The position numbers were made by a program, and so were the translations under genes. From contig JADIIU010000007.1 of NCBI GenBank assembly GCA_027603945.1, positions 1 through 64,000 of the forward strand: a DNA stretch of 64,000 bases, given 5' to 3'. Below, piece after piece: positions 1-63,693 of this stretch. This stretch comes from Terramyces sp. JEL0728 (lineage: Eukaryota; Chytridiomycota; Chytridiomycetes; Rhizophydiales; Terramycetaceae). Positions within the stretch are counted from its first letter, which is position 1; each line of letters opens with the position of its first letter. The notes beneath the pieces are model-generated. The model did no database searches, was not told where the DNA came from, and worked only from the letters and a program-made list of their open reading frames with translations.

Positions 1-3000
1 ATGGATATCCCAGAAAGTACCGACGAATTAATTCTAGTCCCTACAAATGTCTCTTTCCCAGAGGAAGAACACAAAGTACTCGCCTTCTGGAAAGAAATCG
101 ATGCATTCAGAACATCCGTAGAGTTATCTAAAGGAAGAAAAAAGTTCAACTTTTACGATGGTACTGATCGACTAAATATAGGTCCGCCATTCGCAACCGG
201 GTTACCTCACTATGGCCACCTGCTCGCTGGCACTATTAAGGATGTAGTCACCAGATATGCTCATGCAACTGGCCATTATGTTGAACGAAGAAACGGCTGG
301 GATACGCATGGCCTACCAGTCGAATACGAAATTGACAAGGCTCACAATATCAGAGGGCCGGACGATGTTGCTAAAATGGGTATCCCAAAATACAATGAAC
401 TCTGTCGTTCAATTGTCATGACTTATGCTAATGAGTGGGAAAATACCATTACGCGAATCGGTAGATGGATTGATTTCAAGAATGATTACAAAACTTTGGA
501 TCCTACTTTCATGGAATCGATTTGGTGGGTATTTTCCCAGTTGTACAAGAAAGATCAAGTTTACAGAGGATTCCGAATCATGCCATACTCATGGTATTGC
601 AGCACTGTATTATCAAATTTTGAAGCAGGTTTGGACTACAGAGATGTCACAGATCCAGCTGTAGTTGTTTCTTTCCCACTGGTATCAGACCCTTCGGTCT
701 CATTGATTGCATGGACTACTACCCCATGGACATTGCCGTCTAATTTAGCACTTTGTGTGCATCCCGAATTGGACTATGTGAAAATCAAGGATGAAAAGAC
801 TGGAGCAATCTTCATTTTAATGGAAGCACGTTTGGATATTCTGTACACAGCTGCAGAGCTGAAAAAGAAGGACAAAGCATATGCAGTGTTGGAAAAGATG
901 AAAGGTGCAGCTCTCAAAGGACTAGAATACGAACCTCTGTTTGACTTTTTCGCTCATGTAATTATATATAACTTTAGAGAAAAGGACAGTCGTTCAAAGT
1001 TGTCACCGACACCTATGTAACCAGTGATAGTGGTACCGGTATTGTCCACCAAGCACCGGCATTTGGTGAAGACGATTACCGCATTTGCACTGAACAAAAG
1101 ATTATTGCTGGAGAGGACGATCTTCCGTGTCCGGTCGACAACAGTGGAAACTTTACCGACGAAGTTCCGCCATATGCCAAGATGAACTTTAAAGATGCAG
1201 ACAAGCCAATCCAAAAAGACTTGAAAGCCAAAGGACGTCTCATTCGCCAGTCCCAATACACGCACAGCTATCCATTCTGCTACAGGTCAGGACGTCCGTT
1301 GATGTACAAAGCTGTGCCGGCGTGGTTTGTCAGAGTCGCACCAATTGTCGACAAATTATGCAAAAACAACGAGCAAACTTACTGGTAAGTATTGTTGATA
1401 GTAGGGTTCCAGAAAATGTCAAGGAAAAGAGATTCCACAACTGGCTGGCCAACGCCAGAGACTGGAATATTTCTAGATCTAGATACTGGGGTACTCCAAT
1501 TCCGTTGTGGATCAGTGAAGACTTTGAAGAAATTGTAGTAATCGAATCCATTGCACAGCTGCACGAATTGACAGGAGATTACACTATTACAGATATTCAT
1601 CGTGACAAGATTGACCATCTTACTATCCCTTCAAAGACCGGCAAAGGAGTGTTGCGCCGTATCCCAGAAGTGTTTGACTGTTGGTTTGAAAGTGGCAGCA
1701 TGCCTTATGCCCAAAAGCACTATCCGTTTGAGAACAAGGAAGAATTCGACCAGTCTTTCCCTGCAGATTTCATTGCTGAAGGTATCGATCAAACCCGTGG
1801 TTGGTTCTATACTTTGATGGTTCTTTCCACACACTTGTTTGATAAGCCAGCTTGGAAAAACATTATTGTGAATGGGCTTGTGTTGGCATCAGATGGACAG
1901 AAGATGAGTAAAAGCAAAAAGAATTATCCAGATCCAGCGATTGTTTTGGAGGAATTCGGCGCAGATTCTTTGAGGTAAGAGGATCACTTATGCTAGATTA
2001 TTCTTGATGACTTCTGCTGGAGTTCGGGCCGAAAATGTTAGATTCAGAGAAGAAAGTGTCAAGGAGATGGTTTCCAAGGTTATGCTGCCATGGTTCAACT
2101 CGTACCGTTTCCTGTTTGGACAGTTGGCACTGTTAAAGAAGGAGCACGACTTTAATTTTGTGTATAACCCGCACATGGATATGAAGGATGCCAATGTCAT
2201 GGACAGGTGGATTCTTGCTTCTACACAAAGCTTGATCCAGTTTGTGCGAAAAGAGATGGATGCTTACAGATTGTACACGGTTACTCCTAGACTGTTGACT
2301 TTGATTGACACTTTAACGAACTGGTATATTCGCTTGAACCGTAAGCGTCTCAAGGGAGAAAATGGGGTTGAGGATGCAGGTAGAGCCTTGAATGTGCTGT
2401 TTGAAGTTTTGTACACTCTTTGTAGATTGATGGCGCCATTTGCACCGTTTATGGTTGAAACCATGTACCAGAATCTGCGCAAGTTCTTGCCTCCAAGCAC
2501 CGAAGACACTCGCAGTGTTCACTTTTTGCCGTTCCCAGAGCCAAAGGACGAATACTTTAACAAAGAAGTGGAGCGCTCTGTTGGCAGAATGCAAACAGTT
2601 ATTGACCTTGGAAGATTCATCCGCGACCAAAAGACTATTTCGCTCAAGACTCCGTGTCGTGAAATGATTATCATCAACCCAAATGGACAGTTCCACCAAG
2701 ATGTAAAATCTCTCGAATCGTATATCCAAGAAGAAATGAACGTCAAATTAGTCACAGTCACTGCTGAGGAAGACAAGTATGGGGTCAACTACAAATTGCT
2801 TCCAGATGCTAAAGCCCTTGGCACCAAATTCAAGAAGGACGCCAGAACCATCACAGCAGCGCTTCCATCCGTTTCCAAAGAAGAAATCAAGGGCTTCAAC
2901 GCAGCAGGAAAGATCACTATTGCTGGATTTGAATTGACCAGTGCCGAACTGCAGGTTGCCAGAACCTTTGAATCATCCAACAGCAACTACCATGCCCACT

Positions 3001-3326
3001 TTACCAACGAGGTGCTGGTTATCTTGGACACTGCTTTGGACGAAGGATTGATCCAAGAAGGGCATGCCAGAGAAGTCGTAAACCGTGTCCAACGGCTCCG
3101 TAAGGACGCAGGCTTGCAGGCAACAGACGATGTTTTGTACCATGTAACTTTGACAGAAGATGCTGGGGATCTATTAAAGAATGTACTGAGCGAACAAAAG
3201 GAAATGCTGTCCAAGTATTTGAAGCAGGATATTTTGCAAGGACAATACGACAAATCCAAGTTGATCAAGAAAGCAGAGCAAGTTGTTAACGGATCTAAAT
3301 TCTTGCTAGCTCTAGTGAAACACTAA
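1..3326 (+). CDS. ILS1: Cytosolic isoleucyl-tRNA synthetase, five exons
   Basis: This class Ia synthetase charges tRNA(Ile) in the cytosol. The spliced protein is about 1080 residues, the usual length for cytosolic eukaryotic IleRS. The HIGH-class motif appears as PHYGH near residue 63 after GPPFATGL, and KMSKS lies near residue 613 in [10 protein letters not shown]. Introns are inferred at 161-181 (21 nt), 958-977 (20 nt), 1385-1404 (20 nt) and 1975-1996 (22 nt). Each restores a conserved block, for example [10 protein letters not shown] downstream of the third. The window begins exactly on the in-frame ATG that precedes the usual [12 protein letters not shown] start of the domain, so I take it as the true start. 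The stop TAA at 3324-3326 overlaps an AATAAA signal. The family assignment is very secure; exon edges are good to a base or so. Confidence 0.97.
161..181 (+). other. 21-nt in-frame intron inside the IleRS HIGH region
   Basis: The 21 bases start GTACTG, carry ACTAA before the end and finish in TAG. They contain no stop, so the retained reading simply inserts seven residues (TDRLNIG) into [16 protein letters not shown]. Removing them restores the invariant family sequence exactly. A gene caller would miss this intron because the frame stays open. Confidence 0.9.
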
Positions 3327-3628: not shown

Positions 3629-5092
3629 ATGGCTGACTTTACTGAAATATTTAAACAAACGGATCGATTATGCAGATTTTCACCGAATGGAGAGTACATT
3701 GCAACGGCAGTTCAACAAAGATTAGTTGTTAGGGAAGCTCACTCGCTCCAAATATTATCCCTGTTCAATTGCAATGACCAGATACAAGAGATTCAGTGGG
3801 CAAAAGATTCTGATCTGCTCCTAGTCGGATCGTATAAACAAGCCAAATTTCAGATATGGTCGTTACATGACGAAAAATGGACTGCCAATATTGAAGAAGG
3901 GGTTGTAGGATGTGTAAAGCTCATGTGGGCACCAGATGCCAGACATGTCCTCAGTTTCTCTGATTATCAAGTACTCATTGCTGATGTAGCTGCGAATTAC
4001 TATTTGGTCGTTAATTACAAAGAAACCGCTTTATATGCAATATCCAAAATATGCAGATAGAGGGTATCAGTTCAGAACGGATGGTTACTACTTTGCCATG
4101 GTAGAGAGGGCAGAAGGAAAGGATTATATCAGCATTTTTGATTGCTCGGATTGGACGTTGGCCAAAGTACCGATTGTTAATGTAGCGATTCCCAACCGAA
4201 TCGTCGGATTTAGAAGACTTGGCATGGTCTCCAGACGGAAGATTTATTGCAGTGTGGACGTCGCTTTCTCAAGTACCTTTCCAATTAATTTCAGTACAAT
4301 GTATTTATTTATTATCCCGATGGAAGACTAGTTGCAAATTATTCTGCTTATGATTGTGGACTAGGAATAAAAACTGCCGCTTGGTCACCGTCTGGCCAGA
4401 TATTGGCAGTTGGCAGCTTTGATGAAAAAGTAGGTGTGTATTAATCACAGTGTCGCTTGCTGAACCATTATTCGTGGAAGCCATTGGTTGAACTTGGACA
4501 TGGAAAACAAGTCACTGAAAAGAACATTGTATAGCTATACTAACCCAGAATTACTACAAGGAAATAGATCTGGTGGAAATGAATGGAAATGCACGATCTT
4601 GGTCTACAAAAGTGCGGCCCAAATTATCTTGTAATGAATGTTTAACAAAGACGAGGTAAAGAAACCCCCATGTGCTGTTCCAACCGCCAATGTTGATCCT
4701 GAAAAGCCAAATCCAAAAGTAGGGATTTCAACAGTGACGTTTAATTGTACTGGGAGTCTACTCTTGACAAGGAACGAAAAACAACCAAATGTATTGTGGA
4801 TTTGGGATGCGGTTACATTAAAGCAAACCGCGCTGATACAACAAACACAGTCAATCAAAGCTGTAGCTTGGAATCCTCTGGTGAAGGAAAGATTGGCATT
4901 CTGTTGTGCCAGTGGTATATTATACTTGTGGGAGCAGGGACTTGGCAGCGATGCGATAGAAGTGCCAGCTGGTAATATTTCCTAATCACAGTGAACTTTA
5001 ATGTTGTAGATTTATCTTGGAATCCCGATGGAAAGTCTCTGGTGCTCATGGACAAGGACAAGTTTTGTTTGACTTTTTTGGTTGATGAATAA
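3629..5092 (+). CDS. WRAP73: WD-repeat protein WRAP73/Wdr8, eight exons
   Basis: The protein is about 440 residues and matches WRAP73 (WDR8) along its whole length. That family acts at spindle pole bodies and centriolar satellites; fission yeast Wdr8 works with Msd1 and the kinesin-14 Pkl1 in anchoring the minus ends of spindle microtubules. Landmark stretches are LLCRFSPNGEY-like at the start, LRITIWSL across the first splice, then CSDWTLAK, SAYDCGLGIKTAAWSP and NPKVGISTVTF. Introns lie near 3971-3989, 4167-4185, 4273-4294, 4430-4450, 4529-4548, 4631-4650 and 4972-4991, all 19-22 nt. The start is ATG at 3629 (MADF); an upstream TTG is not needed. It is the most finely split gene of the first 10 kb. 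Identity is strong; each junction is supported by family alignment from memory, not by transcripts. Confidence 0.93.
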
Positions 5093-5867: not shown

Positions 5868-7113
5868 ATGCAATTGATTCAGCTAGCTCTGGCTTTGTAT
5901 TCTGTAAATGCAGCTTGCCCATATGCTGGGGAACATAAAATCGCAAAACGGTCGGCAAATTGGCAAATAAACTACAAGAACACCATTGGAAACTCTGAAT
6001 GGGACCAAATCAAGTCTGAAATTCAAGGACTTGTTAGACAAGGATACGGACCACTCCTTGTTCGACTAGCCTGGCACGACGCTGGAACTTATGATGCTTC
6101 CTCTGGAAATGGCGGTCCTCACGCTACGATGCGATTTGCACCAGTTGCCAACTACGATGCCAACAATGGTCTTGGCGGAGCTAGAGGCATGCTGGCCCCA
6201 ATTAAAGACAGACACCCAGGCATTTCATATGCTGACTTGTGGTCTTTTGCTGGCGCAGGTAATAGAAAGACTAACTGCAGTATCTGTATCAAATATCGGC
6301 GGACCAGCAATTCAGTGGAGACCAGGTAGAAACGATGCTGTCGATAATACGGATTCGCTAACTCCTGATGGAAGATTGCCAAACGCTGATTTGGGGGCTG
6401 ATCACTTACGCTCGATCTTCTATAGGATGGGTTTCGGGGATAGAGAAATTGTTGCTTTGTCTGGTGGACACAACTTGGGAGCCACACATCTCTCTGTGTC
6501 TGGCTACGATGGTCAATGGACTAATAACCCTGGCGGATTCGGTAACGAATTCTACGTTAGACTCAATAACAATTTCTTCAGCACATATGCGCAAGAAACT
6601 CTTTCATCTGGGAAAACTCAGTACCACGATTCTGGAAACAAAATGATGTTGCCAACAGATGTTAGTCTGATTCAAGATAGTGCTTTCAGAGGATTTGTCC
6701 AGACTTATGCCGCAAACAGAAACGCATTCTACGCGGATTTCAAATCTGCTTTTGAAAGCTTACTAGAACTAGGTGTAGGTGGTGGATTAGGTGCAGCAGT
6801 CGAAACTAGATTTGGAGTCCCAACCACTGGACATGATTCCAGCCCTCCTCCAAAACCACCAACCCCGCAAACTACTAATGCACCAGTTCAGACCACAGTG
6901 CCAGCGAAATCTGCGCCAGCCAAGACCACCGATCCTTCTACCGCAACTGTGAGTGCTGTTTCTGCAGTTGGATCCAACTCTGCCAGCAATTCCGCAATTA
7001 ACTCAGAGTCTACTGCTGCCACGTCTACCACTGCAGCGTCAAAGCCTTCTCCAAACTCTGCAATCAAAATTGGATCCTCCTTTGTATTGTTGTTTTCACT
7101 GTTACTGCTATAA
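5868..7113 (+). CDS. Secreted, probably GPI-anchored class I-type heme peroxidase 1
   Basis: The 407-residue product resembles cytochrome c peroxidase. The distal motif is VRLAWHDAGTYD (Arg, Trp, His) near residue 65, and the proximal heme histidine lies in ALSGGHNLGATH near residue 200. A Trp after SGYDGQ corresponds to the CCP electron-transfer Trp191. Unlike mitochondrial CCP it begins with a clear signal peptide (MQLIQLALALYSVNA, cleavage before ACPY). The catalytic domain is followed by a Pro/Ser/Thr-rich stalk and a hydrophobic tail SSFVLLFSLLLL typical of GPI attachment. One 22-nt intron is at 6259-6280. ATG 5868 is chosen because it begins the signal peptide. The gene is the first of a tandem pair. 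The role is presumably peroxide removal or oxidation at the cell surface; the donor substrate is unknown. Confidence 0.92.
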
Positions 7114-7533: not shown

Positions 7534-8556
7534 ATGCATTTCACTGCACTCTCACTCTTGTCTTTGGTAGCTCATGCAGCGTGTCCCTTCACTGGGGAAC
7601 ATAAAATCGCAAAACGGTCGGCAAATTGGCAAGTCAACTACAAGAGCACCATTGGAAACTCTGAATGGGATCAAATCAAGGCTGAAATCCAACCATTGGT
7701 TGTTCAAGGCTATGGGCCAATCTTGGTTCGCCTGGCTTGGCACGATGCAGGCACATACGATGCATCTTCAGGAAATGGAGGTCCACACGCTACAATGCGG
7801 TTCAATCCAGTCGGAAACTATTCTGCAAACAATGGGCTGTCCATTGCTAGAGCATTGTTGGATCCAATTAAAGCCAGCCATCCATCAATTAGTTTCGCTG
7901 ATTTGTGGTCCTATGCTGCTGCTGGTATTAAATATTTAATTGTAGTCGCTATTACCAACAGTGGAGGTCCGGTTATATCATTCCGTCCAGGTAGAAACGA
8001 TGCTGTTGACAACACAGACTCGCTAACTCCAGATGGAAGACTTCCAAACGCAGATTTGGGGGCTGCTCATTTACGGTCAATCTTTTATCGAATGGGGTTG
8101 AACGACCAAGAAATTGTAATCTTGGCTGGTGCACACAATCTAGGCAACTGCCACATGAACAATTCTGGTTATGCCGGCCCATGGACGTCATCGCCAAATA
8201 CCTTTGGCAACGAATTCTACGTTAGGCTAAACACCGACTTTTTCACAAATTACAAGAACGTGACTTTATCTTCTGGTAAATCTCAATTCAACGATTCAAG
8301 CAATGCTATGATGTTGCCAACTGATGTCTCTTTGATTCAAGATTCAACTTTCCAAGGATTTGTTAAGGCTTATGCGGCAGACAAGAATACCTTTTACGAC
8401 AATTTCAAAGCAGCCTTTCAAAAATTGATGGAGCTGGGTGTTGGTCCTGGATTAGGTAGTAATGTTGAAACCAGATTTGGCGTAAGTACCACTGGACAAA
8501 ACTCTGCAACTTCCATGGGAATTTCTCTCGCATTCATCACCCTGTTGTTTATTTGA
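7534..8556 (+). CDS. Secreted class I-type heme peroxidase 2 (tandem paralogue)
   Basis: The spliced protein is 333 residues and is very close to the preceding peroxidase, including the block from GEHKIAKRSANWQ to GPHATMRF. The distal motif VRLAWHDAGTYD, the proximal ILAGAHNLGNCH and the Trp in SGYAGPW are intact. The signal peptide is MHFTALSLLSLVAHA, cleaved before ACPF. The Ser/Thr stalk of the first copy is reduced to about 20 residues, but a hydrophobic C-terminus (GISLAFITLLFI) remains, so GPI anchoring is possible. A 21-nt in-frame intron at 7925-7945 is at the same position as the intron of the paralogue, which shows that the duplication copied the intron and that both have drifted since. 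An AATAAA follows the stop by a few bases. Confidence 0.92.
   Translation: MHFTALSLLSLVAHAACPFTGEHKIAKRSANWQVNYKSTIGNSEWDQIKAEIQPLVVQGYGPILVRLAWHDAGTYDASSGNGGPHATMRFNPVGNYSANNGLSIARALLDPIKASHPSISFADLWSYAAAGIKYLIVVAITNSGGPVISFRPGRNDAVDNTDSLTPDGRLPNADLGAAHLRSIFYRMGLNDQEIVILAGAHNLGNCHMNNSGYAGPWTSSPNTFGNEFYVRLNTDFFTNYKNVTLSSGKSQFNDSSNAMMLPTDVSLIQDSTFQGFVKAYAADKNTFYDNFKAAFQKLMELGVGPGLGSNVETRFGVSTTGQNSATSMGISLAFITLLFI
7925..7945 (+). other. 21-nt in-frame intron of peroxidase 2
   Basis: The segment runs GTATTAAATATTTAATTGTAG plus no stop in frame, so it would be read as seven extra residues (GIKYLIV region). Its removal gives AAAVAITNSGGP, which aligns without a gap to AGAVSVSNIGGP of peroxidase 1, where the homologous intron is 22 nt and frame-breaking. 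Confidence 0.88.
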
Positions 8557-8592: not shown

Positions 8593-10393
8593 TTAATCAT
8601 CACCATTGACTACCTCGACTTTTTTGGAAATTCGTTGGATGGTGTCAATAAAGTCGCTTGTACTTTCTCTATTTGCAAATACAATGTCCCAAAACATGTT
8701 TTCTGGAACCTTTGTCGGTGGTTCGATAGGCTTGATTTCTTCATTCTCTTCCTTGCCAAAGTGTACTCGCACCCACCAAAACCAGCCACTGGTAGTTGCT
8801 TGCTGCTTACCAATTGAAGTTAAGGAGTTGTAGTATCCTATATGTCCGTTCTGTAACTGAGCTCCGAGATTCTTTAATTGCGGGAAGCTGGTATCAATTC
8901 TCCAACTTCTCCATCTTTCCACTTTGGTAATTTCCGAAATTCGACCAACACCAAGGACAGTGTATTGCGGAATGACATCAATCAGGAATCCCTTGACATA
9001 GTTGTATTTAGAAGGGTAGCGTGATGAGAATTCAGGTGGGAAAATAGCTGGTGGCCATGCATCCAGGCGTTCTTGAAGGAGATAAAGGAATTCTCTAGTT
9101 CCTAAAATACTAGTATGTTGAATTTCAGCCCCTAATATATCTGTTTCAGGCACTGGCTTAAAGTATCGCAAAAATACTCCAAGCAAATACAATTGTACAA
9201 AATCGAAATCTACTTTGGTAACTTGTTCTTTAATTCCGGAATCGTATTCTTCTGTCGTGAGAGGATTAACTTGGTAGGGCCATGCATCATAACAAAGTAT
9301 CTGAGTTTCTTTTTGGCCAGGCTGCAATATTACGGTATCTTGGAGGTTCTTTATGCACCACTCAATATCTTGATTAATCAAAGTGGATCTATCCCGGGAA
9401 TTCTCCTTGGCTTCGTCTAAAAGAGTTGTAATTGAATCCACAATTTGCGTCGTTAAATATCTTGATCTCGTGTGGAATAATACCGAAAGGATAGCTGGCT
9501 CTTTGGAAGGCAGTCTCGTGTCCGTGTGGAATACCAAGTATTGCCGTCTTGGTCCAACATCTATTCGATCCATTTCGAAAATAGACATTTTATGACATAC
9601 CTCAATCAATTTCGACGGATTCATGTACATTGTTTGCTCATCTTGAAGTGGTTTTTTGAGATTACCTAATCTGAAAAGCGGTTTAGCAATATACACGAAT
9701 TTGTTTGTCAATAGCAGGTAGCCAGGGAAATGCTGGCCAGGAACCTGGTGGCCTTGATTTTCTACATTCTTGAATAGCTTTGCAAAGTTGAAATCTACAT
9801 TAGCTGCAATTACTTGTTTGATTGTTTACAAATGGCGAGCTCTGAACTAGAAAACTGCCGGGTATCCAATAAATGATCCTCTCGTTATCCTGTAAAAGCC
9901 GCAATTTCAAATGCAACTGCAATGCATTTGTCAGTTGCATGAACGGTATCAATGGTTGGGAGCGATCTATAACTGTCTGATCTCTGTATCCGTTTGAAAA
10001 TACAGATCCTGACGAACGAGAATACCTCGGTCCAGATTTTACTGATTTCGGTCTATTTAAAATAATTTCAGAGTTGTGCGATCGAGCGGACTGTTTATCA
10101 ACAATTACTCGAGTGATAGTTGGCGGCACTTTGATTACATTTGGATACGAAGACGAAAATAGCCGTTCTTTTTGCGATGATACTTCTACGATTGATGTGT
10201 ATTTGTGTGGTGTCGGACTTTTGGGCCGTTCAAGTTCCTTCTTTTCCTTCTCTGGCTTTTCATATACTCGAATGTACGGTCCATGAGATGTTAGTTTTGC
10301 TTCTAATGATGAGATTGTGTATGTCTGCGCTTGTTCTATTGCTTTAGATAATTTACTTTCGGGCGGTTCAACTCTTTTTTTTGAAGATGACAT
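8593..10393 (-). CDS. Unrecognised 593-aa protein with PH-like segments, two exons
   Basis: Two open frames join through a 19-nt intron at 9795-9813, giving a continuous product of 593 residues from ATG 10393. The first 150 residues are basic, Ser/Pro-rich and probably disordered. Residues 165-300 alternate strand-like segments (ERIIYWIPGSFLV, GYLLLTNKFVYIA, RRQYLVFHT) in the manner of a PH domain. The C-terminal part contains a second strand-rich run (GWFWWVRVHF, ENMFWDIVFA) followed by a helix, which could be another PH-like fold. This fold guess is weak. I do not recognise the family. The gene is convergent with peroxidase 2, the stops being 37 bp apart, with AATAAA signals facing each other. 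Confidence 0.75.
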
Positions 10394-10434: not shown

Positions 10435-11189
10435 TCAATCTTCGTCGTCAAATACAAGCGCCTCGCCTTCTTCAGGCTCATCGATTTTCTCTTGAATAAC
10501 AACGTCAACATCCTCACCTTCTCCCATGTATTGCTCGTCACTCTTCAACAACGCGGTGTTTTCTTCAAATAACTGTCTTCCAGTCTTTTTGCCACCAGTC
10601 TCCAGTAACTTTTCCACATCTAATGCGTCTTTCATTGCCTGAATAAAATAATAATTACCAATGGGAGTTCCTTTCCACTCTTTTTCAAATCGAAGGCTTC
10701 CTTTAAAAACGCTTTATGCCATTCTTTAAATGATTCTTTGGTAACTCTTGTCCCGATATATTTAATTCGTTCTTCTTCCTCTTGTCTTTCCAGCCGCTCT
10801 TGTCGTTCCCTTTCTTCTCTTTCCAATCGCTCTTTTATAGTAATTTCAGCTTGTTCTTTAAGCCAAGAAACCATCAGGAATATCATTCCGATACCTAATT
10901 GGTCGTTGCACTGCTGAATTAACTGGCCAGACAAATCTTCAATTTCATTTTCCAACAAATACTGTGAAGTGATTATGAATTCTGGTATTTCTTCAGGGTA
11001 AGTAGGAGTATATGTTATTTCAATAGCAAGTAGCCAATCTTTGTCTTCAAGTCGGATTGATTCCAAATCAGGATCATCCAAGTGGACATTGATAATAAAA
11101 TTCTTTGGGTCATTGATGATTAGTTCCGTTTCTTGGTAAATGAATCCTAATGCTTCTAATTCTTGTTCCTGTTCTGCTTGGTGATCCAT
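10435..11189 (-). CDS. RWD-domain protein, RWDD1/Gir2-like
   Basis: The spliced product is 244 residues. The N-terminal 110 residues form an RWD domain (QEQELEALGFIYQETELI start, YPEEIPEF turn). A highly charged Glu/Arg helix follows (ERLEREERERQERLER) and the tail is acidic. This matches RWDD1/D FRP2 in animals and Gir2 in yeast, which bind the DRG2/Rbg2 GTPase and associate with translating ribosomes and the Gcn1 pathway. The C-terminal block from AMKDALDVEKLLETGGKKTGRQLFE is conserved in that family and appears only after removing a 20-nt intron at 10639-10658. The gene lies 41 bp from the neighbour at 10393 on the same strand. Confidence 0.88.
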
Positions 11190-11206
11190 TCTCTGAAAAA
11201 AAGAAA

Positions 11207-29600: not shown

Positions 29601-30198
29601 TGTTGCTTTCATTTTCAGCAGTATCTGTTCCTGAATTTTGTCCAGATTTGAACTCCATGTAATACTTTCGTTATCTGTCTCTGTGGAATACTCGTTAAAA
29701 TCCTAAATTAACGAGTTTTACCTCCAAATGGCGGGGCTCGTCGTTTGAAATTAAACTGCCTTGACATTCATCTCTGAATTTTTGATACTGCTTGATATGG
29801 GCTTCCAGGACTGTCAAAAAGTTCACCCAGAGTGACTCGTACAGCGGGTGATTCGCCAGAAGATGAAGACAGTCAACCAAAATGACGAGAAAGCTGTCCA
29901 TCTTTTCGTCTATTAAGCCTTGCTGCGTTGGTTTCAATAGCTCCATAGGAACAAACTCCTTGATCATTCCGAATACAGTTTCATGGATCTGAGAGTATGC
30001 CGAGCGCTTTGCAGCGATGCGCTTTGGTTTTTCGTAATTGATTACCAGGTTTTTTTGCTTAAATGTAACTTTCTGCAGTTGAAATACTGCACCCAATATA
30101 AAGAATACTGTCAGGATCAGTCCAGATACTGAGAGCACACTCCAAATCCATCCGACGTAAGGGTATAGTATAATCGTAGCAATTACAACCTTAATCAT
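26607..30198 (-). CDS. Mdm1/SNX13-type sorting nexin (TM-PXA-RGS-PX-nexin C)
   Basis: Five frames join through introns at 29703-29721 (19 nt), 29352-29369 (18 nt), 28736-28755 (20 nt) and 27531-27549 (19 nt) into 1171 residues. Two N-terminal membrane helices come first (residues 1-40), then a PXA domain (about 60-290) and an RGS-like bundle (about 400-470, ending FWASAEKYR). The PX domain (about 745-860) carries the RRYSDFDALH phosphoinositide-binding pattern. A nexin C domain closes the protein. This order defines the SNX13/14/25 and yeast Mdm1 family, ER-anchored tethers at ER-vacuole/endosome and lipid-droplet contacts. The 18-nt intron is the shortest in the window. The 28736 acceptor is a tandem TAGTAG that could give one extra residue. 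Confidence 0.93.
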
Positions 30199-52337: not shown

Positions 52338-53568
52338 TTATTGACAAGATTTTGGGAATTCAACGCGGGTTCTGTCAATAGGAACGCCAAGCATATCCTT
52401 TGCAACCAATTCAGTCTTTTTCAAGACTCGAATTAGATTACCTCCCATAATATTAACAACATCCTTGTCAGAAAACCCTCTTTGAATTAATTCAGCAACC
52501 AGGAACGGATATTTAGATACATCTTCCAATCCTTCAGTGACTACATCAATCCCGTCAAAGTCTCCGCCAAACCCTACATGCTCTGCACCTACAAGTTTTG
52601 AAATGTAAGAAATGTGGTCTGCTACTTGAGACAACGTTGCCTTAGAGGTGCAAGAAATCAAAGCTGGCCAAAAGTTGATCATGATTACACCATCCAGTTC
52701 TTTCATCGCAAGTAAGACGTCATCAGGCTACATAAAGCATCAATTACCATGTTTCGTTCGGTAGGACATAACGCTGCAGAAGAGGAATGCGAGGCGAATA
52801 GCGGTGCTTTTGTCACAGCAATAACATCCCTCATAGTCTTGTGGGAAACATGGGAAATATCTACCATCATACCAATTCTGGATGAATTTAGAGTTACCTG
52901 TTCATTTCCTTTACGATTTTAATGCCAAAATCTGTCAACCCATTGTGGATAGGTGGCATGGAAGCAGAGTCTGCCCAGTTTGTGTGGCATCCATGAGTTA
53001 AAGTCATATAGCGAACCCCTAAATCATAATACATGCGAAGAGCTTCCAAAGAATCGTCAATTTGGTGACCTCCTTCAATACCAATCAGCGAGGATATCTT
53101 TCCCAGTTTGAACAAATCAATAATGTCATCTGCTTCAGTTGCAAAAGCCAGTTCATTATTGTCTTTGATTAACTGCTTGACAATGTCGATCTGCTGCAAG
53201 GTTTTCAAAATAAAGTCTCCCTTCTTTGTTAAATCCTTTTCGCAACCAATAAATGCACTCCATATTTGGCTGGTTAATCCGCCTTCCCTCATCCTGATAA
53301 TATCCGTATGGAAGCTCGGTGGTAGTTGGGTGATGTTCAAGATGCCATCCCTGCGGTTTTTAATTGACCATGGTAAATCATTGTGAGTGTCAACTAGAGG
53401 ATGGTGACTGATTAGGAATCGTGCCCGTTCAAGAGGATCGCTCGGTATTGCGCAGTTGATGCTGTAGTAATAGAAGGAGAATAGTGAAATGAAGAGTATA
53501 AATGGAATCCATCTAAATGGGCATTTTCTTGTTTTAATAACTGGTGGTCCAATTGGCAATCCTTTCAT
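52338..53568 (-). CDS. Membrane dipeptidase (renal dipeptidase family)
   Basis: Three exons with 20-nt introns at 52878-52897 and 52728-52747 give 396 residues. The start at 53568 places one membrane helix at about residues 15-35 (RWIPFILFISLFSFYYY), so this is probably a type II membrane protein. The binuclear zinc ligands are visible: HND in LVDTHNDLPW, Glu in GIEGGHQI, His in DISHVSHKT and in FASHSSSAAL, and Asp in VGFGGDFDG. The family cleaves dipeptides and, in animals, leukotriene D4 and glutathione conjugates. The C-terminus lacks a hydrophobic GPI signal. Only 18 bp separate its start from the divergent SET gene. Confidence 0.94.
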
Positions 53569-54179: not shown

Positions 54180-55410
54180 ATGGCTCAATCACTAAAAGAA
54201 GCAAAATTAGACTATGTAGAAATCAATCCGCTTTCCAACCCGAAAGGAATAAAAAGGCTCTGTGAAATATGCGAAAAGCCAGCGTATCGCCAATGTAAAA
54301 ACTGCAGAGTTACCTACTATTGGTATTTCCTATTAATCAAGCGATGTTGATCATCATACAATAGATTTTAAAGGAATTCACCATTTGATATGCAGCCAAC
54401 TATCGCTTTTGCGTAATTCAGAAGGAATTTTGGGGAGCGAAGAGGAACGAACGGAACAGAAGCGTACGCAAGTCAAAAGACAAGTAACTCCCGTTAATCC
54501 AGATGGAATTGCTCCGTGTCTCAAAGCAGCAGTCGTACAGATATCTCTTTGAAGGCCAGTATGAATTGGCCATTCCTGCTGCGTTGCAATCGCTTCGATT
54601 TTCAATGGCACTATCTGGTGATAACCCAATCAACCTCGTACCTTCCTATTTGATTCTTGGAGAAGCAAGTATAGGTATATTCTATTTTATTCAGGTATGA
54701 AACGGTATTATGAAGCTGAGAATTACCTTTCATTAGCAAAATGGGCAATTCTAAAGTCTGACGACTGCGCCAATGATATTAAATCGCAGTTACATCGTAA
54801 TTTTGGCCAATTATACGCCGCGCAAGGACAATATGATAAAGCACTCCACCAGCTCGCTTTGGATGTATGAAATGTCTCATTTAGATTACTTGTATTACCT
54901 TGCATACCGATAACCCTGAAGATGTGGCAGTTTCCGGAGGATACTACCATATGGGAATAATATTTCAAAAGCAAGGTAGAAATGAAGATGCTCAAGCATT
55001 CTACGAAATTGTCGTGTCCATATGGTCAAAAGTGTGGACTCCAAATTACAAACTTGGTTCGTTTCTTTAATATTAGACATTGCACAAGCTGCTGAAGCAA
55101 TTCAGATGATTTCTTCAATTCACAAATTCAGACAACAGACTGCTGAACTTACAAGTTCTGCCTATCGAACTTCATCTTTCACTTTGGCAAAAATGTACTT
55201 TAGCGCAGGACAGTATGATCGTGCAAAAGAACAAGGATTCAAAGCGCTAGAAGGTTTGTTTTGTTAATTACAGCTTTTGAAGCAGCGCTTGGCAGAGAAC
55301 ATTCTGCGACTATAGAAGTAAGAACATTCTTGAAAAACGCGGCTTCCTTGGCACCAATGATTACTCAAAGAAGACACAGAGGAAGTTTTGGAAACACTCT
55401 GCCGGTTTAA
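54180..55410 (+). CDS. ZMYND12: ZMYND12-like MYND-finger/TPR axonemal protein, seven exons
   Basis: Six introns of 19-20 nt (54323-54341, 54484-54502, 54675-54694, 54865-54884, 55057-55076, 55254-55273) give 370 residues; the human protein is 365. The MYND zinc finger at residues 25-75 reads CEICEKPAYRQCKNC, then YYCDVDHHTIDFKGIHHLIC, with the Cys completed by the first splice. Diagnostic ZMYND12 text follows: SYRYLFEGQYELAIPAALQSLRF, LVPSYLILGEASIG, LQLHRNFGQLYAAQG-like TPRs and HMGIIFQKQGR. In animals ZMYND12 is needed for sperm flagellar motility and associates with axonemal dynein components, and it is generally lost in lineages without cilia. Junctions 5 and 6 have GTT donors. Confidence 0.92.
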
Positions 55411-56179: not shown

Positions 56180-57444
56180 ATGCAAGTCGACTTGGACATA
56201 GCCAGCTATTTAAACCAGCAAAAAACCAAATTCCCAGAATTCAAAGACAGCTTTGGGCAGTTCGAAACCTTATACGATCAAAAGTACTTTTGGCTAACGA
56301 CAGATTATGGCATCAACTCACAGTTTCCCTTGAAAAATTATTGGCAAATCCAAAATCCCATTCTTTATTAATACCATTATATAACAACTTTGTAAAGGAC
56401 TGGGAATCAAAGATGAACTCTATCAGTCTTGTAAAATTTGTTAGTTTGACCAGCGTTCAATTGGGAGGTATCTATTTGCTAAAAAGATCACAAAAAAGCG
56501 CTGGAATTCTTGACCCCGTTTGCTGCAAAGTTATCCAGCGAGGAAAATGCAAAGGATGCTTATGTGTTGATTTCTACTGAAATTGCCCGAAACAAACTAT
56601 TAAGCGGAGATTTAGAAGGATGCAAAACAAATATTGAAGAATGCGAAAAGATTTTGGATTTGTTACCAGGAACTGATCCAGTTATCAATGCAGGATTCTA
56701 CCGCGTATCTTCAGACTATTTCAAAGCAACCATGGGCTATCCCCAATACTACCACAACGCATTGCTATTTTTATCCTCAGTGTCGTTGGATGATCTAAGT
56801 GCTCAGGAAAAGCAAGAACGTGCTTTCGAATTATGCATGAGTGCGTTATTGGGAGAAGGGTTGTATAACTTTGGTGAATTGGTAATTGATCTTTTATTTA
56901 GCTTATGCATCCAATTTTGAACTCGCTACAAGGTGGCAGCTATTCGTGGTTGAGAGATTTACTATTCTATTACAACTCTGGAAATATGGAGGGATTTGAA
57001 AAAACCAGTAAATCAGGAGAATTCCTTCGCCAGGTAATTAATTGTTGATAGCCCAGCCATTGCTAGTAGCTGCCCTTTCATTTTTGAGACAGAAGTTGTG
57101 TCTTATGACTTTGGTTGAGTCGGTTTTCAAAAGATCAAAGGAACAAAGGGGTAAACTATCGTTCGCAGATATTTCCAAAGAGACTAGAGTGACAATTGAT
57201 GAAGTCGAACACTTGGTAATGAAGGCACTGTCCCTTGGTTTGATCAAGGGAAGTATTGACGAAGTTGATTCGATTGTATCTGTAAATATTATTAATTTAG
57301 GTATCTTGGGTACAGCCTCGTGTCTTGGACAAAAATCAAATCACCCATATCGGAAATCGAATTGAAGAATGGAGCTTGAAAGTTAACCAGCAAGTAATTG
57401 GACTCGAAAGCCAAGAAAGCTTCACCTCAGTATTTGCCCAATAA
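56180..57444 (+). CDS. RPN9: 26S proteasome lid subunit Rpn9/PSMD13
   Basis: Six exons (introns 56284-56303, 56468-56486, 56882-56901, 57034-57056 and 57282-57300, lengths 20, 19, 20, 23 and 19 nt) give 387 residues, close to yeast (393) and human (376). Helical repeats (FYRVSSDYFKATMGYPQYYHN, LCMSALLGEGLYNFGEL) lead into the PCI domain: FLRQKLCLMTLVESVFKR, FADISKETRVTIDEVEHLVMKALSLGLIKGSIDEVD and SWVQPRVLD across the last splice. It is a scaffold subunit of the regulatory particle lid. The stop is inside CAATAAAAA. Confidence 0.95.
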
Positions 57445-57480: not shown

Positions 57481-60400
57481 TCATGTTGGGGGCTGTCCTC
57501 TTCCTCTCCCAGAACCTGGCCTTGAGCCTCGAACTTTAATAGAACCTTTTCCTCTTACCGTGCCTATTGGTACAGTTCTCACGATCTTTGGTTTTGCACC
57601 TTGTTCAGAAGAAGTTGGAGTTGCAGTTTTGGCTTTCTCTGCCTTTAACTTTTCTTGTAAAAGCAATGCTTTCTTTTTTTTCTCCATGGCAGATAAAGTC
57701 AATGTATTTTGTTTAACTGGCGATTGCTGAGGAGTTTTACTTTCGACTTTTGCGGTTGGTGCTGCTTCTGACTTTGCAACTTGAACAGTTGTTGGCGCTT
57801 TGATAGATACAGGAGTAGAAACAGCTTTAGTAAAAGTCGGAGTAGTCTTTTCAGGCTGTGAAATTTCAGGAAGCTTATTTGATGGAGTGATGGCTGGAAC
57901 TGCAGCTGGAGTAGAAGGAGTGCTTTTTTCAGGTGTAGCAGTGATTGGCGGTTGAGTAGCTGTCGTGGCACTTGGGATCGAACTAGTTCTCTGAATAACC
58001 ACAACTTGAGGAGTGCCTATCTTTGTCGGGCTTGACGGGGCTTTAACTGGACTGGATGGAGTTTGTAGCACCACTGGCTCTGGAGCTGGTGTTGTTGCGC
58101 TATTTGCTATTGGATCTTGCTTTGCAGGTATTAAAGATTCTACGACCTGAGGAGGTTTGGACACGGGGTTGGGAAATGCGGTGTCAATAACAGGCTTTGG
58201 AACACTACCTGGCGCGCCAAATGCAGATTGAAGAGTCTGTGAAAACAGTGGAGTACTTGTGCCAAGTGGAACAATTGGGGGAATCGCAGCAACTTCCGGC
58301 TGCTTTACCTCGACATTTTCATTGATTTCCTCGTAAGGGGCAGCTACTTCTTCAGCTTGGGGTGTCGCCAAATCTTCAACAGAATTGGTTTCGACGGAAT
58401 CTCCTGTTTCAGGAACTATATCCTCAGCAGCTGGAGTGGTAGCGTCCATTTGTGCATCACCGTTTGCATCTTCTGGTTCTTGTTCATCTTCATCCTCTGG
58501 AATATCTTCATATTCATCGTTATCGTCCATAACCAAATCTCCTTGGTCTTCTTCGACATTTTCTGTATTATCTGCAACCGCCTCTGGAAGCTGTTCATCG
58601 ACTTTTACTCTTTTTGAGTTTTCTTCAGGCTCGATTTCCACCTCGCGGGGACGCTTTGGAGTTGTTTCTTCGACGACGGTAGTTTCCGGGGTTTTAGTTG
58701 GTATCGCTGCCGATTTTAGTTGCTTTCGCAAATCCTCTGCTTTTGTTTCCCATTCCTTGTTAATTTTTTCAAGTTCTTGATCTTTCTGTTGACTGAGCGT
58801 ATTCTTTTGTTCCAGCAGTTCGGTAACAAGCCGGGATTCAAGTGCATCTTTTTCATTTTGTAGTGCAGTTATATTTTGTTTCAATTCTTTCACCTGTGCT
58901 GCTTTGGCTTTCAATTTTTCGTTAGCCTGAGAGACCACATCTTTGTTTCTTGCAAGAGCTGCATCTAATTTTCCTTGAATTCCAACCTATAATTAACTCT
59001 GAAACCAACCAGCTCTTCTTTGCCGACTTTTTCTTGGGTATCATTTGCAAGTTTTTGGTTTTCGCCAACAATGCGATCTCTTTCGGCAGCTAATGCAGTG
59101 ATTTCAGCAGTGAGCTTGGCCACCTTTTGCTCGCTTTCGTCTATTTTGGTTTCCAATTGATCGCGTAGATTGACGAGCTCCTGGGTAATTTCTTTGTTTT
59201 TAAAAGTAAGAGTAGTAACCAAAGACTTTAATTCCTCGTGTTCCATTGGGTCAATTCTTTCGTATTTTTCAAGAATTTGCTGTGCCCTGCCTTTCCATCT
59301 GGCATTATCTTCGTTTAATGTCGTAATTTCGGCTTTACGGACTTCCACCTCGCCTTCTAACTGGAATATTTGTTCTATAGTTAGAAGTATAAATCCCTTT
59401 CAATGGAGATATCTGTGTTTCAAGGGTTCTAATCTTTGACTCTAGCTGGTCAACCTTTTTGCCAGACGCTTCGAGTTGTGCACGAAGAGTAATATTTGAT
59501 TCGCGAAGGAGGTTGCTTTGTTCAATCTTTTCCATCAATTCCAAATGTTTACGTTCTGATCCCATGTTTTCTTGGCCTCTCTTTCTTTCATCTGCTAAAA
59601 CTAAATTGCTCTCATCCAAAGACCTTTGCAAGTGTTCAATCTGCAATCGAGACCGTTCAGCGTCCTGTCTAGCGATTTGCAGTTTTGTATCAACAATTTC
59701 TTTTTCTCTTCTCAGATACTTGACAACTTCGTTCAGTTCGGCCAGGTTTCCTTGGACTTCTTCACCTTCTACCAATTGGGCAGTTCTGGACGAGGTCAGC
59801 TGTTCGAACTGAGCATGCAGCAAGTTGTTTTGATTGTTCAAGTCTGAAACGCGGCTTTCTAACTCTTCAATGTCTTTCTGCATCTTTTCTCTTGTTGAGT
59901 TGAATGTATTTGTAAGGTGTGCCAAGTTATCTTTAGCGACATTACTTTGGGCAGCTGCCTCCTCTTTTTCTTGGGACAAAATAAGAATGTTTTGTTTCAT
60001 TTGAGACAATGACTGAATTGTTCCAGAGTGTGCTACAATTTCTCGTTCATAATTTTCTTGTGCATCTTTTGCAAACTTTACTTGTCTTTCAACATCTGCT
60101 TTCATGTCATTTACATTAATAATCGCCTAAATTAAAGCAGATATACCATCTTTTCGCGTTCTTTTAAGGAAGCAATTTGTTTTTCGTACAAAGCTAAAGT
60201 ATTTTTGCGCTCGGTCTGTTCCAAGTCCATCGCTTCTTGAGTGGAAGTCAGAGTTTCGCCCAATTTCTTTAATTTTTCAATCAAATCATCTCGCTCTTGT
60301 TCCAAATGCTTTGTTGTGGAAGTCATATCGCAGATGTTTTGCTCCATTTCTGCTTTGTACACATCGAATGTCGAGTTCATTTCATCCAACCTTTCTTCGC

Positions 60401-63400
60401 TTGCTTGACTGATTTGCTTAAAAGTCTCTGCTTGTTCAGTAACCAGAACCAGTTCGGCTTTCAACTTTTCAACTTCAATTCTAGCTTTTGCCAATTCCGA
60501 TTCCAGTGATCTAATTTGATCTACTTCGGTTGCTTCAGGTCCAAGTTCATTTGTGTTCAAAATCTTTTCTTCATAAATACGGGCCTTGCTCTCAGCCTGC
60601 TCCAACCGGATTGTCAACTCAGTTACCCGGGTGGCCGCAGAAGCTTCCTTGGTTTGCACTACAGACAATTCTCCTTTGGTACGTTCATAGCTTGACGTTA
60701 ATTTTTCAGTTTTGAGTTGATATTCACGCATTTCGGCATCTCGCTTGGAAGTGAGACTGCGCTGATCATCCAACAAATCATTCAACTGTTTTCTTGACAG
60801 CTGCAGCTCTCTTCCAAGCTGTTCGATTTGCGATTCGAATTTTTTCACATTCTGCAGATGTGCATGGTCCTTTTCTTCCAAAAGAGATTGGATTTCCCTG
60901 TTTCTGTCGTTTGTAAGATTTCGTTCCTTGATCAAATCTTGCACGTCTTTAGACATCCTGGATTCACTCTGCTTCCACACTTGCTTTTCCAATTTGAGGT
61001 TTTGGTTTTCAAAAGCGACTGTGTCCAGTGATTGACGGGTAGTTGAAAGTGTGTTTGACAACTCTTCAATTTTTAGATCTTGGCGAGTTGACATTGTATT
61101 CAGAGCCGAAAATCGCTCCTTCAACTGCACAAACTCCTTTTCCTTTGAATTCAAATTGCCTAATAACATTTCATGACGATCTAAATTGAATTAGCAATTA
61201 CCATTGAGGTACGAAATTTGATTATTAAGTTTTGCAACTTGAATCGATAACTCCATTTTTTCATTTTGAGTTTGTTCCATTTGTGTTTTGAGCAACCTGG
61301 TGTCAGTCCCACATTCTTTGCGATATACATCAAATTCACGTTGCAACTCTCGGTAATAGGATTCGTAATCTGCACTATTTGTAACTGAAAGTGGCTGTTC
61401 AGTCCCTGGTTCGGGCGATTGATTGGCAGACCTATTTGGAGATCCCCTTCTAGTTTCAGCAATTCGTCTCCATTGATCCCTTTCCCTGGAGTATGATTCT
61501 GAATTCAGCTGTTGTCGCTTCAACTCTTCTTGGAGTTTTTCGATTACGACTGCTGATTCATTTAGCGCCTGGATCTTAGATTCTTCTGCTTCTCTAAGGG
61601 TAACAGATTCTTGCTGGTCCAGTTTCGCGGAAAGACTACGTATAGATCGCAAAAGTTTCTGGTTTTGCGTTTGCAATTCCTGGATGTTTTTGAAGATCAC
61701 AAGGTGGTTTGATATAATTGAATCAGCTTCGGTTTCTTCCAGTGGTATAGCAATTGGCGAATTGTCTTGGAATTGGCCTTTCAAAGAAGCCTGCTCCCTC
61801 AACAAAGCTTGGATTTGTCTCCCGCAGTCCATCAAATTCTTTTCATAGAGCTGGTGTTCAGTTTCCTTGGCTTCTAGCTCTGCTCTGAGCCTCTTCAACT
61901 CACCTTTATATCCTTCATTCTGATGGGCAACTTCACTCAAAGACTTTGCCAATTGTTCATTCTGCTGCTTTGCTTTATGGAAATCCTTATTGGTTTTGTC
62001 GATAAGAGGAGCCTTAATAAATTAAATATTACCCTCTGTTCAAATTCGGATACGATATGGTTCAGACATTCATTCAACCTTGAAACTTCACTTTTTTCTT
62101 TGATGAGTTCTTGCTGGAGGCTTGTATATTCAGCATAAATTTGGGTAAAAGACTTTCCGGTTTTCTGCATACGACTTGCAACGGCTGCAGTCTGACTAAA
62201 TTGTCCAACTTGCTCAGCAGTTGATTTGGCAGAAAGCTCGTTATTGATAGTTTGCAGTTCCGACTCTAATTTTTCGATGTCGAGGTGCAGCTTATTTTTT
62301 TCAAGCTGCATTTCTTCGATAATTTCATTCTTTTCCATGAGTCTACTTTCAGATTCATTGTTTAGTTTGTTCAACTGTTCTTCTACTTTACGTAAAACAT
62401 CTTCAAGTTCTTGATTTTGAGAGGCTAATTCCTGGCATTTAGATTGATATAAATCCGCAAGTTTCTTCTGGCTATTCATTTCTATCTTGAATTGAGATTC
62501 GATTGTGATTTGGTTATTTTCCAATTCGCGAATCTGATTTAGCTTAGTTTCCAGCTTTTCTTGCAATTCGTTGTTTCGTTCGAGAAGCGACTGATTTCTA
62601 ATTTGCAGCGAAGAATTCTCTTGGTTTGCAGTGTCTAACCCCGCTTGAAGGGAGGCAACCTGTTCTGTTTTCTCTTTTCTGTACTGCTGTAGCTGATCTC
62701 CTTTGCTGGCTAGCTCTTGGTTTAGCCAATCAACAATTTTTTTAGATTGCTGGGCTTGCTGATTCGCGTTCGCTAAAAGAGACTTTAATTCCAGTTCATT
62801 AGCTTGGGTTTGGGCCAAAAGCTCTTTGTCTTTTCTCGATTCGATTTTTTTCTCTTGCAGTTGCTTCTTTTTATATTCAAGCTCCTCTGAAGTTAGATGT
62901 TCAAATTTGAAATTGAATTGAAGAATCCAATGCGGTAGGACTTACCTGACAATTGGAAACACTCTTGTTGTTTTGCATTCAGAACAAATTCCAAATTTTG
63001 TTTATCATGATCCAACGTTTCTTGAACTGCCTTGTTTTTTTGTTGGCTTTGATCGCGAATAACTTTTAATTTTTCTTGGATTATGGCTTCCTTTTCATCT
63101 CTTTCCTTTACAATCGATGCATTTTTTGTTTTTTGTTCATCTAGCTGGGCTGAAAGAGAAGAAATTTGCTTAAAGAGATCAGATATCTGAGTTTCATACT
63201 TTAGCGCTTCCTTTTCAAATATGTGATTCCATTCTAGATTCTTTGGTTTCCCCATCGTTCCTGCTTGTGATTTTTGAGGCGACTCTACTTTCCTGGGGTT
63301 TGAGGGTGATTTCTGGTTATTTTCTGTCAGAGAGTTTGACTTGGAGGGCAACGTTGGGACAGAGTTTGAGCTAGATTTAGAAGGTGAGTCTGGATATCCA

Positions 63401-63693
63401 ATTGAAGTCGATTTTAGTTCTCTTTCTCCAGATTTAGGTGTGACTTTAACAGATTTCACAGGTGAATTCGAATCCAAGGTAGCCTTTTTCTGTGGAATTC
63501 CATTTTCACTAGACTTGTCATTTAATTTCTTTGGAGTAACAACATAATTTTCAAATGGATCCATCCCCGCATCCTCATTCAATGCTTCAAAGTCTTCCTT
63601 TGGCGGCTTCATTTCTACATCCTTTGATGGATTTTGTATATCGTCGAGTATGTTTTCATCGTCAAGTTCTGTGTTTGAACTTTTGTTTTCCAT
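57481..63693 (-). CDS. TPR/Mlp1-like nuclear basket coiled-coil protein, about 2015 aa
   Basis: Seven exons join in one frame. Introns are 62887-62945 (59 nt), 62013-62032 (20), 61181-61201 (21), 60127-60146 (20), 59375-59396 (22, GG donor) and 58987-59009 (23). Residues 1-150 are Ser/Pro/Lys-rich with SP sites. Residues 160-1610 are nearly unbroken coiled coil, with the TPR-like text KIVDWLNQELASKGDQ and IEMNSQKKLADLYQSKCQE. An acidic stretch (1640-1720), a Pro/Thr/Val-rich region and a Gly/Arg tail follow. This architecture fits TPR/Mlp1/2 of the nuclear pore basket (human 2363, yeast Mlp1 1875 residues), which anchors mRNP surveillance and spindle checkpoint factors. Exact homology needs alignment; other giant coiled coils are possible but less likely. 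ATG 63693 is chosen over an upstream in-frame one. Confidence 0.86.
59375..59396 (-). other. Apparent 22-nt intron with GG-AG ends
   Basis: Read on the minus strand the segment begins GGATTTATACTTC and ends TAACTATAG. Removing it joins SPLK to EQIFQLEGEVEVRKAE in frame, while retention leads to a stop after about 25 codons. The CTAAC branch-like motif is present, but the donor is GG rather than GT. A T-to-G change or sequencing error at a GTATTT-like donor is the simplest explanation. Confidence 0.55.
62887..62945 (-). other. 59-nt spliceosomal intron, the only long one in the window
   Basis: The donor is GTAAGT and the end is CATCTAACTTCAG, both perfect consensus. The joint restores the coiled coil from CFQLS to EELEYKKKQL. 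No AG occurs between donor and acceptor that would give a shorter intron, so this segment is nearly three times longer than any other intron found. Confidence 0.75.

Follow-up and report, generated by a model that had tools for sequence, protein, structure and literature searches.

The first 64,000 nucleotides (nt) of contig JADIIU010000007.1 of Terramyces sp. JEL0728 (C7:1-64000, hereafter the window) carry a nearly uniform population of introns of about 20 nt. The segments behave as spliceosomal introns, given their GT-AG ends, a TAAY box that would pair with the U2 small nuclear RNA (snRNA), and the conserved protein blocks that return when they are removed. We therefore put a probability of roughly 0.93 on U2-type spliceosomal introns of a chytrid fungus, whose population would be compressed to about 20 nt. 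The pattern was originally predicted from the window alone. Spacing statistics, gene models and homology now confirm the observation and support its interpretation, whereas the predicted count of 71 introns in 24 genes was not reproduced.

The assembly comprises 15.0 Mb in 231 contigs. We analyzed the window together with C1:1-200000, giving 264 kb or approximately 1.8% of the genome, plus loci of 3-4 kb recovered by genome searches. The gene-level evidence covers this 1.8% and a few searched loci.

Intron length distribution

The length class is visible without any gene model. We counted pairs of a donor and a branch-acceptor motif on both strands, with the reversed sequence as control. For pairs of the form GTA...TAAY-NN-AG the maxima lie at 19 nt (52, against 8 in the control) and 20 nt (45 against 6), and for those of the form GTA...TAAY-NNN-AG at 20 nt (47 against 5) and 21 nt (41 against 7), the latter with a weak surplus at 22 nt (14 against 10). 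For scored motifs the excess at 18-23 nt over pairs at 30-106 nt ranges with the threshold between 36 and 50 in the window and between 141 and 180 in C1:1-200000. An early test, which joined open reading frames and was restricted to the window, gave a noisy result in which length 20 was prominent (21 cases) and other lengths were near the controls.

Gene finders yield the same class. A motif-free finder, on which GT-AG was imposed and to which lengths of 10-150 nt were allowed, called 82 introns, and 44 of these measure 19-23 nt. Each of four other dinucleotide pairs gave 66-70 'introns' with no length peak, so that GT-AG alone of the five peaks. A motif-trained finder placed 212 introns in 130 models, of which 173 measure 17-25 nt: 24 of 19 nt, 91 of 20, 38 of 21, 16 of 22, three of 23 and one of 24 nt. 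Its matrices were trained on the 17-25 nt class under a flat length prior, and this finder is therefore not neutral. In all 39 called introns with a length divisible by three an in-frame stop is present, which is a bias of the finder, since 21-nt introns free of such a stop were missed in three genes (peroxidase gene g4, MFS transporter gene g22 and Ste23). A further model set contains 231 short introns in 136 models with 172 kb of predicted coding sequence, that is, 1.3 introns per kb of coding sequence and 1.7 per model. By arithmetic rather than counting, 231 introns in 264 kb would correspond to approximately 13,000 genome-wide.

Exact matches to the pattern GTAAGTN{0,30}TTAACNNNAG, with permitted lengths of 16-46 nt, number 63 in the genome: 32 of 20 nt, 17 of 21 nt and 14 scattered over 22-45 nt. 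Because backwards patterns, used as control, outnumber the forward ones (128 against 77 for a first pattern, 78 against 63 for the second), the totals lend no support and only the length distribution among the matches is used. Within the lengths that the pattern permits, 49 of the 63 are at 20-21 nt, and no peak well above 25 nt, which the original prediction had named as contrary evidence, is seen; nearly all introns fall within the 15-25 nt typical of ultra-short-intron lineages. Some of the 63 matches are identical copies at two places. Identical intron strings occur at C3:117997 and 147288, at C115:3963 and 22599, and at C9:35228 and C19:30807, which suggests segmental duplications or uncollapsed haplotypes.

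Layout of the introns

The 173 short introns start with a GTAATT-like donor, with A at +3 in 91%, A at +4 in 61%, T exceeding G at +5 (46% against 23%) and T at +6 in 66%. A TRAY-like, or (C/T)TAAY-like, branch box is present in 149. Of these, 128 have the branch A at position 14 or 15, and in 138 it is separated from the intron end by a tail of 5-6 nt. Length thus varies by one or two bases on either side of a rigid layout. These position matrices, proposed earlier as a check, bear out the description of mostly GTA donors, a TAA-type motif near the end and a final AG. Upstream of the branch the interior is T-rich (42% T, 26% A), and the GC content is 0.30 against 0.40 in coding sequence. The termini are the GT-AG or GC-AG of U2-type introns, though GT-AG was imposed on the finder, and the branch motif can pair with the U2 snRNA of this genome. 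U12-type introns were rejected, as the donor and the TAAY branch do not fit the U12-type consensus; the U12 snRNA was outside our searches.

Conserved genes restored by intron removal

Eleven genes were compared with homologues (IleRS, AsnRS, Rpn9, Slu7, U2AF65, Prp18, MCCB, Vps1, Ste23, PCYT2 and eIF3c), those on C1 being chosen as conserved and rich in predicted introns. A junction was counted as supported if the alignment was gap-free within three residues, as judged by eye. The introns drawn in these genes number 44 (six of 19 nt, 25 of 20, ten of 21, two of 22 and one of 23 nt), and none is longer than 23 nt. As drawn, 36 of the 44 junctions fall in ungapped protein alignment. One more, at amino acid (aa) 481 of Vps1, aligns only with a TG end and then fits the Boothiomyces sp. 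JEL0866 protein. Two others (MCCB aa 430, Ste23 aa 529) are provisional, their introns having been placed anew by hand once the alignments revealed missing residues. The remaining five have no such support: those at U2AF65 aa 3 and Prp18 aa 5 lie outside the alignments, PCYT2 aa 149 is in a variable linker, and Slu7 aa 227 and Ste23 aa 810 each stand beside a short gap. As had been predicted, excision restores conserved blocks in IleRS, AsnRS and Rpn9, and it does so outside the window in U2AF65, Slu7 and others.

The IleRS model is identical over 1087 aa to a database protein without the three introns. Its gap pattern is shared by 16 of 113 rows at junction 1, 111 at junction 2 and 112 at junction 3. 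The claim that all IleRS homologues read through the three junctions therefore fails at junction 1 (aa 319), which falls in a region whose length varies and is supported only by its 12 nearest rows. When a congener's Vps1 protein is matched against the C1 DNA, the match splits into pieces at the drawn introns. In Ste23, excision of the stop-free 21-nt intron turns a seven-residue insertion back into the homologue's frame. Prp18 contains one 20-nt GC-AG intron (L034:1790-1809, on C7), whose position follows from the alignment with its yeast homologue.

The public Terramyces Vps1 protein (P0243, compared with C1:33250-35434) drops 26 conserved residues at the 21-nt segment ending in TG; this segment is either a rare GT-TG intron or carries a base error. 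The public U2AF65 of Boothiomyces macroporosus (P0121, compared with L036, C2:43438-47652) is fused to the neighbouring L24-like ribosomal protein gene and is without 11 residues found in Globomyces and Kappamyces, likely through gene-prediction error. These two examples suggest that gene finders adjusted to longer introns have introduced errors into part of the public gene sets of the family.

Splicing machinery and proposed mechanism

All four protein splicing factors searched for are present in the genome (Slu7, Prp18, U2AF65 and SF1). Slu7 and Prp18 lie above the Pfam cut-off and have solved homologues. U2AF65 has RRM1-RRM2 and a C-terminal RRM; TIGR01642 matches it in pieces, the best below the whole-protein cut-off. 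The U2 snRNA was found at 140 bits and keeps the canonical branch-binding region GUGUAGUAU. Yeast depends on Slu7 and Prp18 chiefly for introns with a long branch-to-AG distance. Their loss as a consequence of a short distance was considered and rejected, both genes being present, and their retention at 5-6 nt goes against the simple yeast expectation.

We picture ordinary two-step splicing on a minimal substrate, which would consist of a six-base donor, a few free bases, the branch box, two or three free bases and AG. U2 would pair with the UAAY box, branching would give a lariat loop of 14-15 nt with a tail of 5-6 nt, and the first AG after the branch would serve as acceptor. Because the footprints of U1 on the donor and of U2 on the branch box would overlap, the two presumably bind in succession, by hand-over instead of jointly side by side. 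The 5-6 nt from branch to AG would leave no room there for a pyrimidine tract bound by U2AF65, and this protein, if RNA-binding at all, probably contacts the U-rich segment that precedes the branch. Length may be held by a steric floor together with deletion bias, introns being lost or gained whole.

A bolder reading, which we consider doubtful, makes this chytrid lineage the first fungus in which all introns have settled near 20 nt; SF1, U2AF65 and the step-2 factors would be intact, but donor recognition would be rewired. The preference for T over G at +5 and the lack of a detectable canonical U1 would then point to a donor choice that is no longer governed mainly by U1 pairing, its part being taken by a rigid donor-to-branch ruler of 14-15 nt.

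Introns of the window

In the window, 41 introns of 18-23 nt lie in 17 of the 33 gene models. The finder run on sub-windows adds three and paralogue comparison two, so that about 46 could be placed, against the 71 claimed; the excess of scored motifs is near 50, and the finder misses stop-free 21-nt introns. The list gives window positions and strand; where no other source is named, the evidence is the gene model.

958..977, + strand: IleRS intron 1, 20 nt; junction at aa 319, where the 12 nearest rows continue like the model; 16 of 113 rows share the gap pattern
1385..1404, + strand: IleRS intron 2, 20 nt; gap pattern common to 111 of 113 other rows
1975..1996, + strand: IleRS intron 3, 22 nt; gap pattern common to 112 of 113 other rows
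4972..4991, + strand: 20 nt, gene first labelled WRAP73; partial model only
6259..6280, + strand: peroxidase g3, 22 nt; same site as 7925-7945 in the tandem paralogue; Pfam peroxidase
7925..7945, + strand: peroxidase paralogue g4, 21 nt, no in-frame stop, missed by the finder; paralogue alignment
9795..9813, - strand: 19 nt, gene 8593-10393
10639..10658, - strand: RWD-domain gene, 20 nt; gene model and Pfam RWD
19634..19654, + strand: 21 nt, gene 19565-20530
20941..20960, + strand: 20 nt, gene first labelled UBR1 (putative label)
21169..21189, + strand: 21 nt, gene first labelled UBR1
26313..26332, + strand: 20 nt, gene first labelled UBR1
27531..27549, - strand: 19 nt, gene 26607-30198
28736..28755, - strand: 20 nt, gene 26607-30198
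29352..29369, - strand: 18 nt, gene 26607-30198
29703..29721, - strand: 19 nt, gene 26607-30198
31925..31944, - strand: 20 nt, gene 31284-33525
32110..32131, - strand: 22 nt, gene 31284-33525
32273..32292, - strand: 20 nt, gene 31284-33525; merged with 32413..32432 into one 160-nt intron in an earlier model
32413..32432, - strand: 20 nt, gene 31284-33525
32642..32661, - strand: 20 nt, gene 31284-33525
33099..33120, - strand: 22 nt, gene 31284-33525
35467..35486, + strand: 20 nt, gene 34161-36001
42141..42160, - strand: Ras-family gene, 20 nt; finder on sub-window, Pfam Ras
42276..42295, - strand: Ras-family gene, 20 nt; finder on sub-window, Pfam Ras
42754..42773, + strand: MFS transporter g22, 20 nt; same site as 44403-44422 in paralogue g23
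43161..43181, + strand: MFS g22, 21 nt, no in-frame stop, missed by the finder; paralogue comparison by eye, 5 coding nt off the g23 intron
44403..44422, + strand: MFS transporter g23, 20 nt; gene model and paralogue; the Pfam MFS_1 match spans the intron
44805..44825, + strand: MFS transporter g23, 21 nt; gene model and paralogue
45547..45567, + strand: MFS g23, 21 nt, exactly absent from paralogue g22; paralogue comparison
50621..50640, - strand: AsnRS, 20 nt; ungapped alignment to solved AsnRS
51137..51156, - strand: AsnRS, 20 nt; ungapped alignment to solved AsnRS
51585..51604, - strand: AsnRS, 20 nt; ungapped alignment to solved AsnRS
52728..52747, - strand: M19 dipeptidase, 20 nt; gene model and one Pfam Peptidase_M19 match, residues 1-279
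52878..52897, - strand: M19 dipeptidase, 20 nt; gene model and the same Peptidase_M19 match
55254..55273, + strand: candidate, 20 nt, low-scoring gene, uncertain
56284..56303, + strand: Rpn9, 20 nt; ungapped alignment to solved PSMD13/Rpn9
56468..56486, + strand: Rpn9, 19 nt; ungapped alignment to solved PSMD13/Rpn9
56882..56901, + strand: Rpn9, 20 nt; ungapped alignment to solved PSMD13/Rpn9
57034..57056, + strand: Rpn9, 23 nt; ungapped alignment to solved PSMD13/Rpn9
57282..57300, + strand: Rpn9, 19 nt; ungapped alignment to solved PSMD13/Rpn9
58987..59009, - strand: candidate, 23 nt, end of a long coiled-coil-like gene, uncertain
60127..60146, - strand: long coiled-coil-like gene, 20 nt
61181..61201, - strand: long coiled-coil-like gene, 21 nt
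62013..62032, - strand: long coiled-coil-like gene, 20 nt
62941..62960, - strand: candidate, 20 nt, long coiled-coil-like gene, atypical motifs, uncertain

The tandem peroxidase genes g3 and g4 have one intron site in common (22 and 21 nt). In the tandem MFS genes g22 and g23 one 20-nt intron occupies the same site, a second pair of introns lies 5 coding nt apart, and one 21-nt intron shows exact presence in one copy and absence in the other. These MFS differences are possibly due to recent gain, loss or slide.

Host genome and intron density

Terramyces is placed in the Rhizophydiales, Terramycetaceae. In an IleRS tree of 70 rows the window joins Globomyces pollinis-pini with support 99, next to chytrids such as Gorgonomyces, Batrachochytrium and Polyrhizophydium. 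These genera belong to the Rhizophydiales, and Batrachochytrium dendrobatidis is of the same order as Terramyces. U2AF65 is 93% identical to that of Boothiomyces macroporosus. Judging from this tree and the protein identities, the genome is a full nuclear opisthokont genome, that of a chytrid fungus, as the exclusion of a nucleomorph in the original prediction had implied.

Intron density is below both the mean of two Chytridiomycota, given as 3.93 per kb in the available part of PMC8476143, and that of B. dendrobatidis. On this basis compression would have come with intron loss, which holds if the misses of the finder are not large. For Rhizophydium megarrhizum, with a genome of 15.3 Mb, the accessible text of PMC13391722 reports 207 genes with a Gonapodya gene model and 9,233 with a yeast model; this gap might mean that its introns are unusual too.

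Alternative explanations

Several points weigh against spliceosomal introns of about 20 nt as the explanation. Splicing itself we infer. The junction-checked gene models come from a finder trained on the same sequence, 24 of the 173 short introns have no recognizable branch motif, one Vps1 intron needs its TG end, and only three of the 39 longer predicted introns (29-117 nt) were checked singly. Whereas U2, SF1 and U2AF65 were found, the U1 snRNA, which the original prediction had also proposed to look for, gave no genome match up to E 10. For U6 there are two sub-threshold Rfam matches unlike U6, and two core motifs gave no acceptable match. These misses are weak evidence, as no control genome matched for U1, U2 or U6 at E 0.001. 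The weak U6 matches (L030/L031) were rejected because the aligned stretch holds an intron-like string and is without the AGC triad, and the core-motif matches (L042-L045) because no Rfam model recognizes them even at E 1. The U6 gene may have diverged, may be interrupted by introns or may lie outside the assembled sequence.

The layout could also be ordinary for Rhizophydiales and known in substance, the genome then being unexceptional. We regard this as fairly unlikely. In its favour, a database protein is free of the three IleRS introns, and in the protein of a congener the Vps1 introns are correctly passed over; annotation pipelines have thus already encountered such introns. Viral and prokaryote collections, from which near relatives may be left out, yielded no DNA of relatives for comparison. 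However, introns are far denser in B. dendrobatidis (37,153 in 9,893 transcripts in the available part of PMC5364385, against 231 in 136 models here, a comparison of numbers and not of lengths), and no paper among the literature matches listed concerns tiny introns in chytrids.

It is very improbable that the short class is only a part and that many ordinary introns of 50-120 nt exist as well and were missed. Longer calls do occur (39 of the 212 motif-trained introns, at 29-117 nt, and 38 of the 82 motif-free ones outside 19-23 nt), and introns with quite different motifs would slip through the spacing test. Nevertheless, the other dinucleotide pairs yield as many long 'introns', none of the homology-checked introns belongs to this range, and the reversed control contains more motif pairs over 23-120 nt in sum than the real sequence does (669 against 543 for NN, 759 against 500 for NNN), though at the 53-nt spacing alone the real sequence has 17 against 9 for NN, the control's own maximum being 14. 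The long introns predicted in MCCB (61 nt), Vps1 (66 nt) and Ste23 (73 nt) delete residues present in solved homologues, and introns of 22, 21 and 19 nt, respectively, restore them. These three predictions are artefacts, since each swallowed coding sequence beside a short intron.

Finally, it is extremely improbable that the segments stay unspliced, whether they stem from indel errors, are bypassed in translation or are eliminated from the DNA at another point of the life cycle. The fixed length, the GT-AG ends, the U2-complementary box at a fixed position, the same intron sites in diverged paralogues, and a canonical U2 with splicing factors in the genome all speak against it.

Comparison with known systems

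Uniform ultra-short introns are as such a known phenomenon (Stentor, mikrocytids, nucleomorphs, Paramecium, dicyemids). The original prediction called comparable lineages few and named nucleomorphs and ciliates, but left off mikrocytids (PMC10245619) and dicyemids (PMC2483917). With dicyemids among them, the chytrid is not the first opisthokont. The comparisons below follow the available parts of the cited papers.

Introns of Stentor coeruleus measure 15-16 nt (PMC9505925). They resemble those of Terramyces in being genome-wide and of near-single length, with a fixed position of the branch A, a 5-nt tail and a standard genetic code, but a strong branch consensus is absent and Slu7 and Prp18 are given as N/A in the table of that paper. 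The chytrid, a fungus, has 19-23 nt, a clear TAAY box and both factors, and the Stentor pattern of their absence is not seen. Chlorarachniophyte nucleomorphs have introns of 18-21 nt (PMC10245619, PMC2483917), nearly the same range and likewise in high number, yet they are relict organelle nuclei without a branch-point signature (PMC2483917), in contrast to a nuclear genome of 15 Mb with a branch motif. Mikrocytids share uniform tiny introns of conserved sequence (16-17 nt); these parasites have 224 introns and a strongly reduced spliceosome (PMC10245619), whereas the chytrid would have thousands by extrapolation and has all four protein factors searched for. Paramecium and Nyctotherus also have many ultra-short introns in a nuclear genome, but these ciliate introns are longer (around 25 nt), and in Paramecium the donor is largely GT(A) without a branch signature (PMC2483917). 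Dicyemids are opisthokonts with short introns too, but animals, with weak splice signals and no branch signature (PMC2483917). B. dendrobatidis, a chytrid as well, has approximately 3.8 introns per transcript (PMC5364385) against approximately 1.7 per model here.

Tiny chytrid introns are unreported among the literature matches listed, subscription papers being outside the coverage, and the available parts of PMC11649378, PMC8476143, PMC13391722 and PMC5364385 give no chytrid intron lengths. The introns are not unknown to databases, as the IleRS protein without them demonstrates, only unremarked in the literature covered. Three features are new as far as the matches listed show: the introns belong to a fungus, a short-intron lineage has a clear branch box, and its step-2 factors are retained. 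The generalization that ultra-short-intron lineages are without a branch-point signature (PMC2483917, as far as its available part goes) does not extend to Terramyces, where the TAAY box is clear.

If true, compressed U2-type introns in this chytrid would mean that near-minimal introns have also arisen independently among the fungi. The case would separate intron minimization from the loss of step-2 factors or of the branch consensus, which are coupled elsewhere. Chytrids of this group are kept in culture. As Slu7 and Prp18 are kept here at a branch-to-AG distance of 5-6 nt and are N/A in Stentor, the reason for their retention becomes testable.

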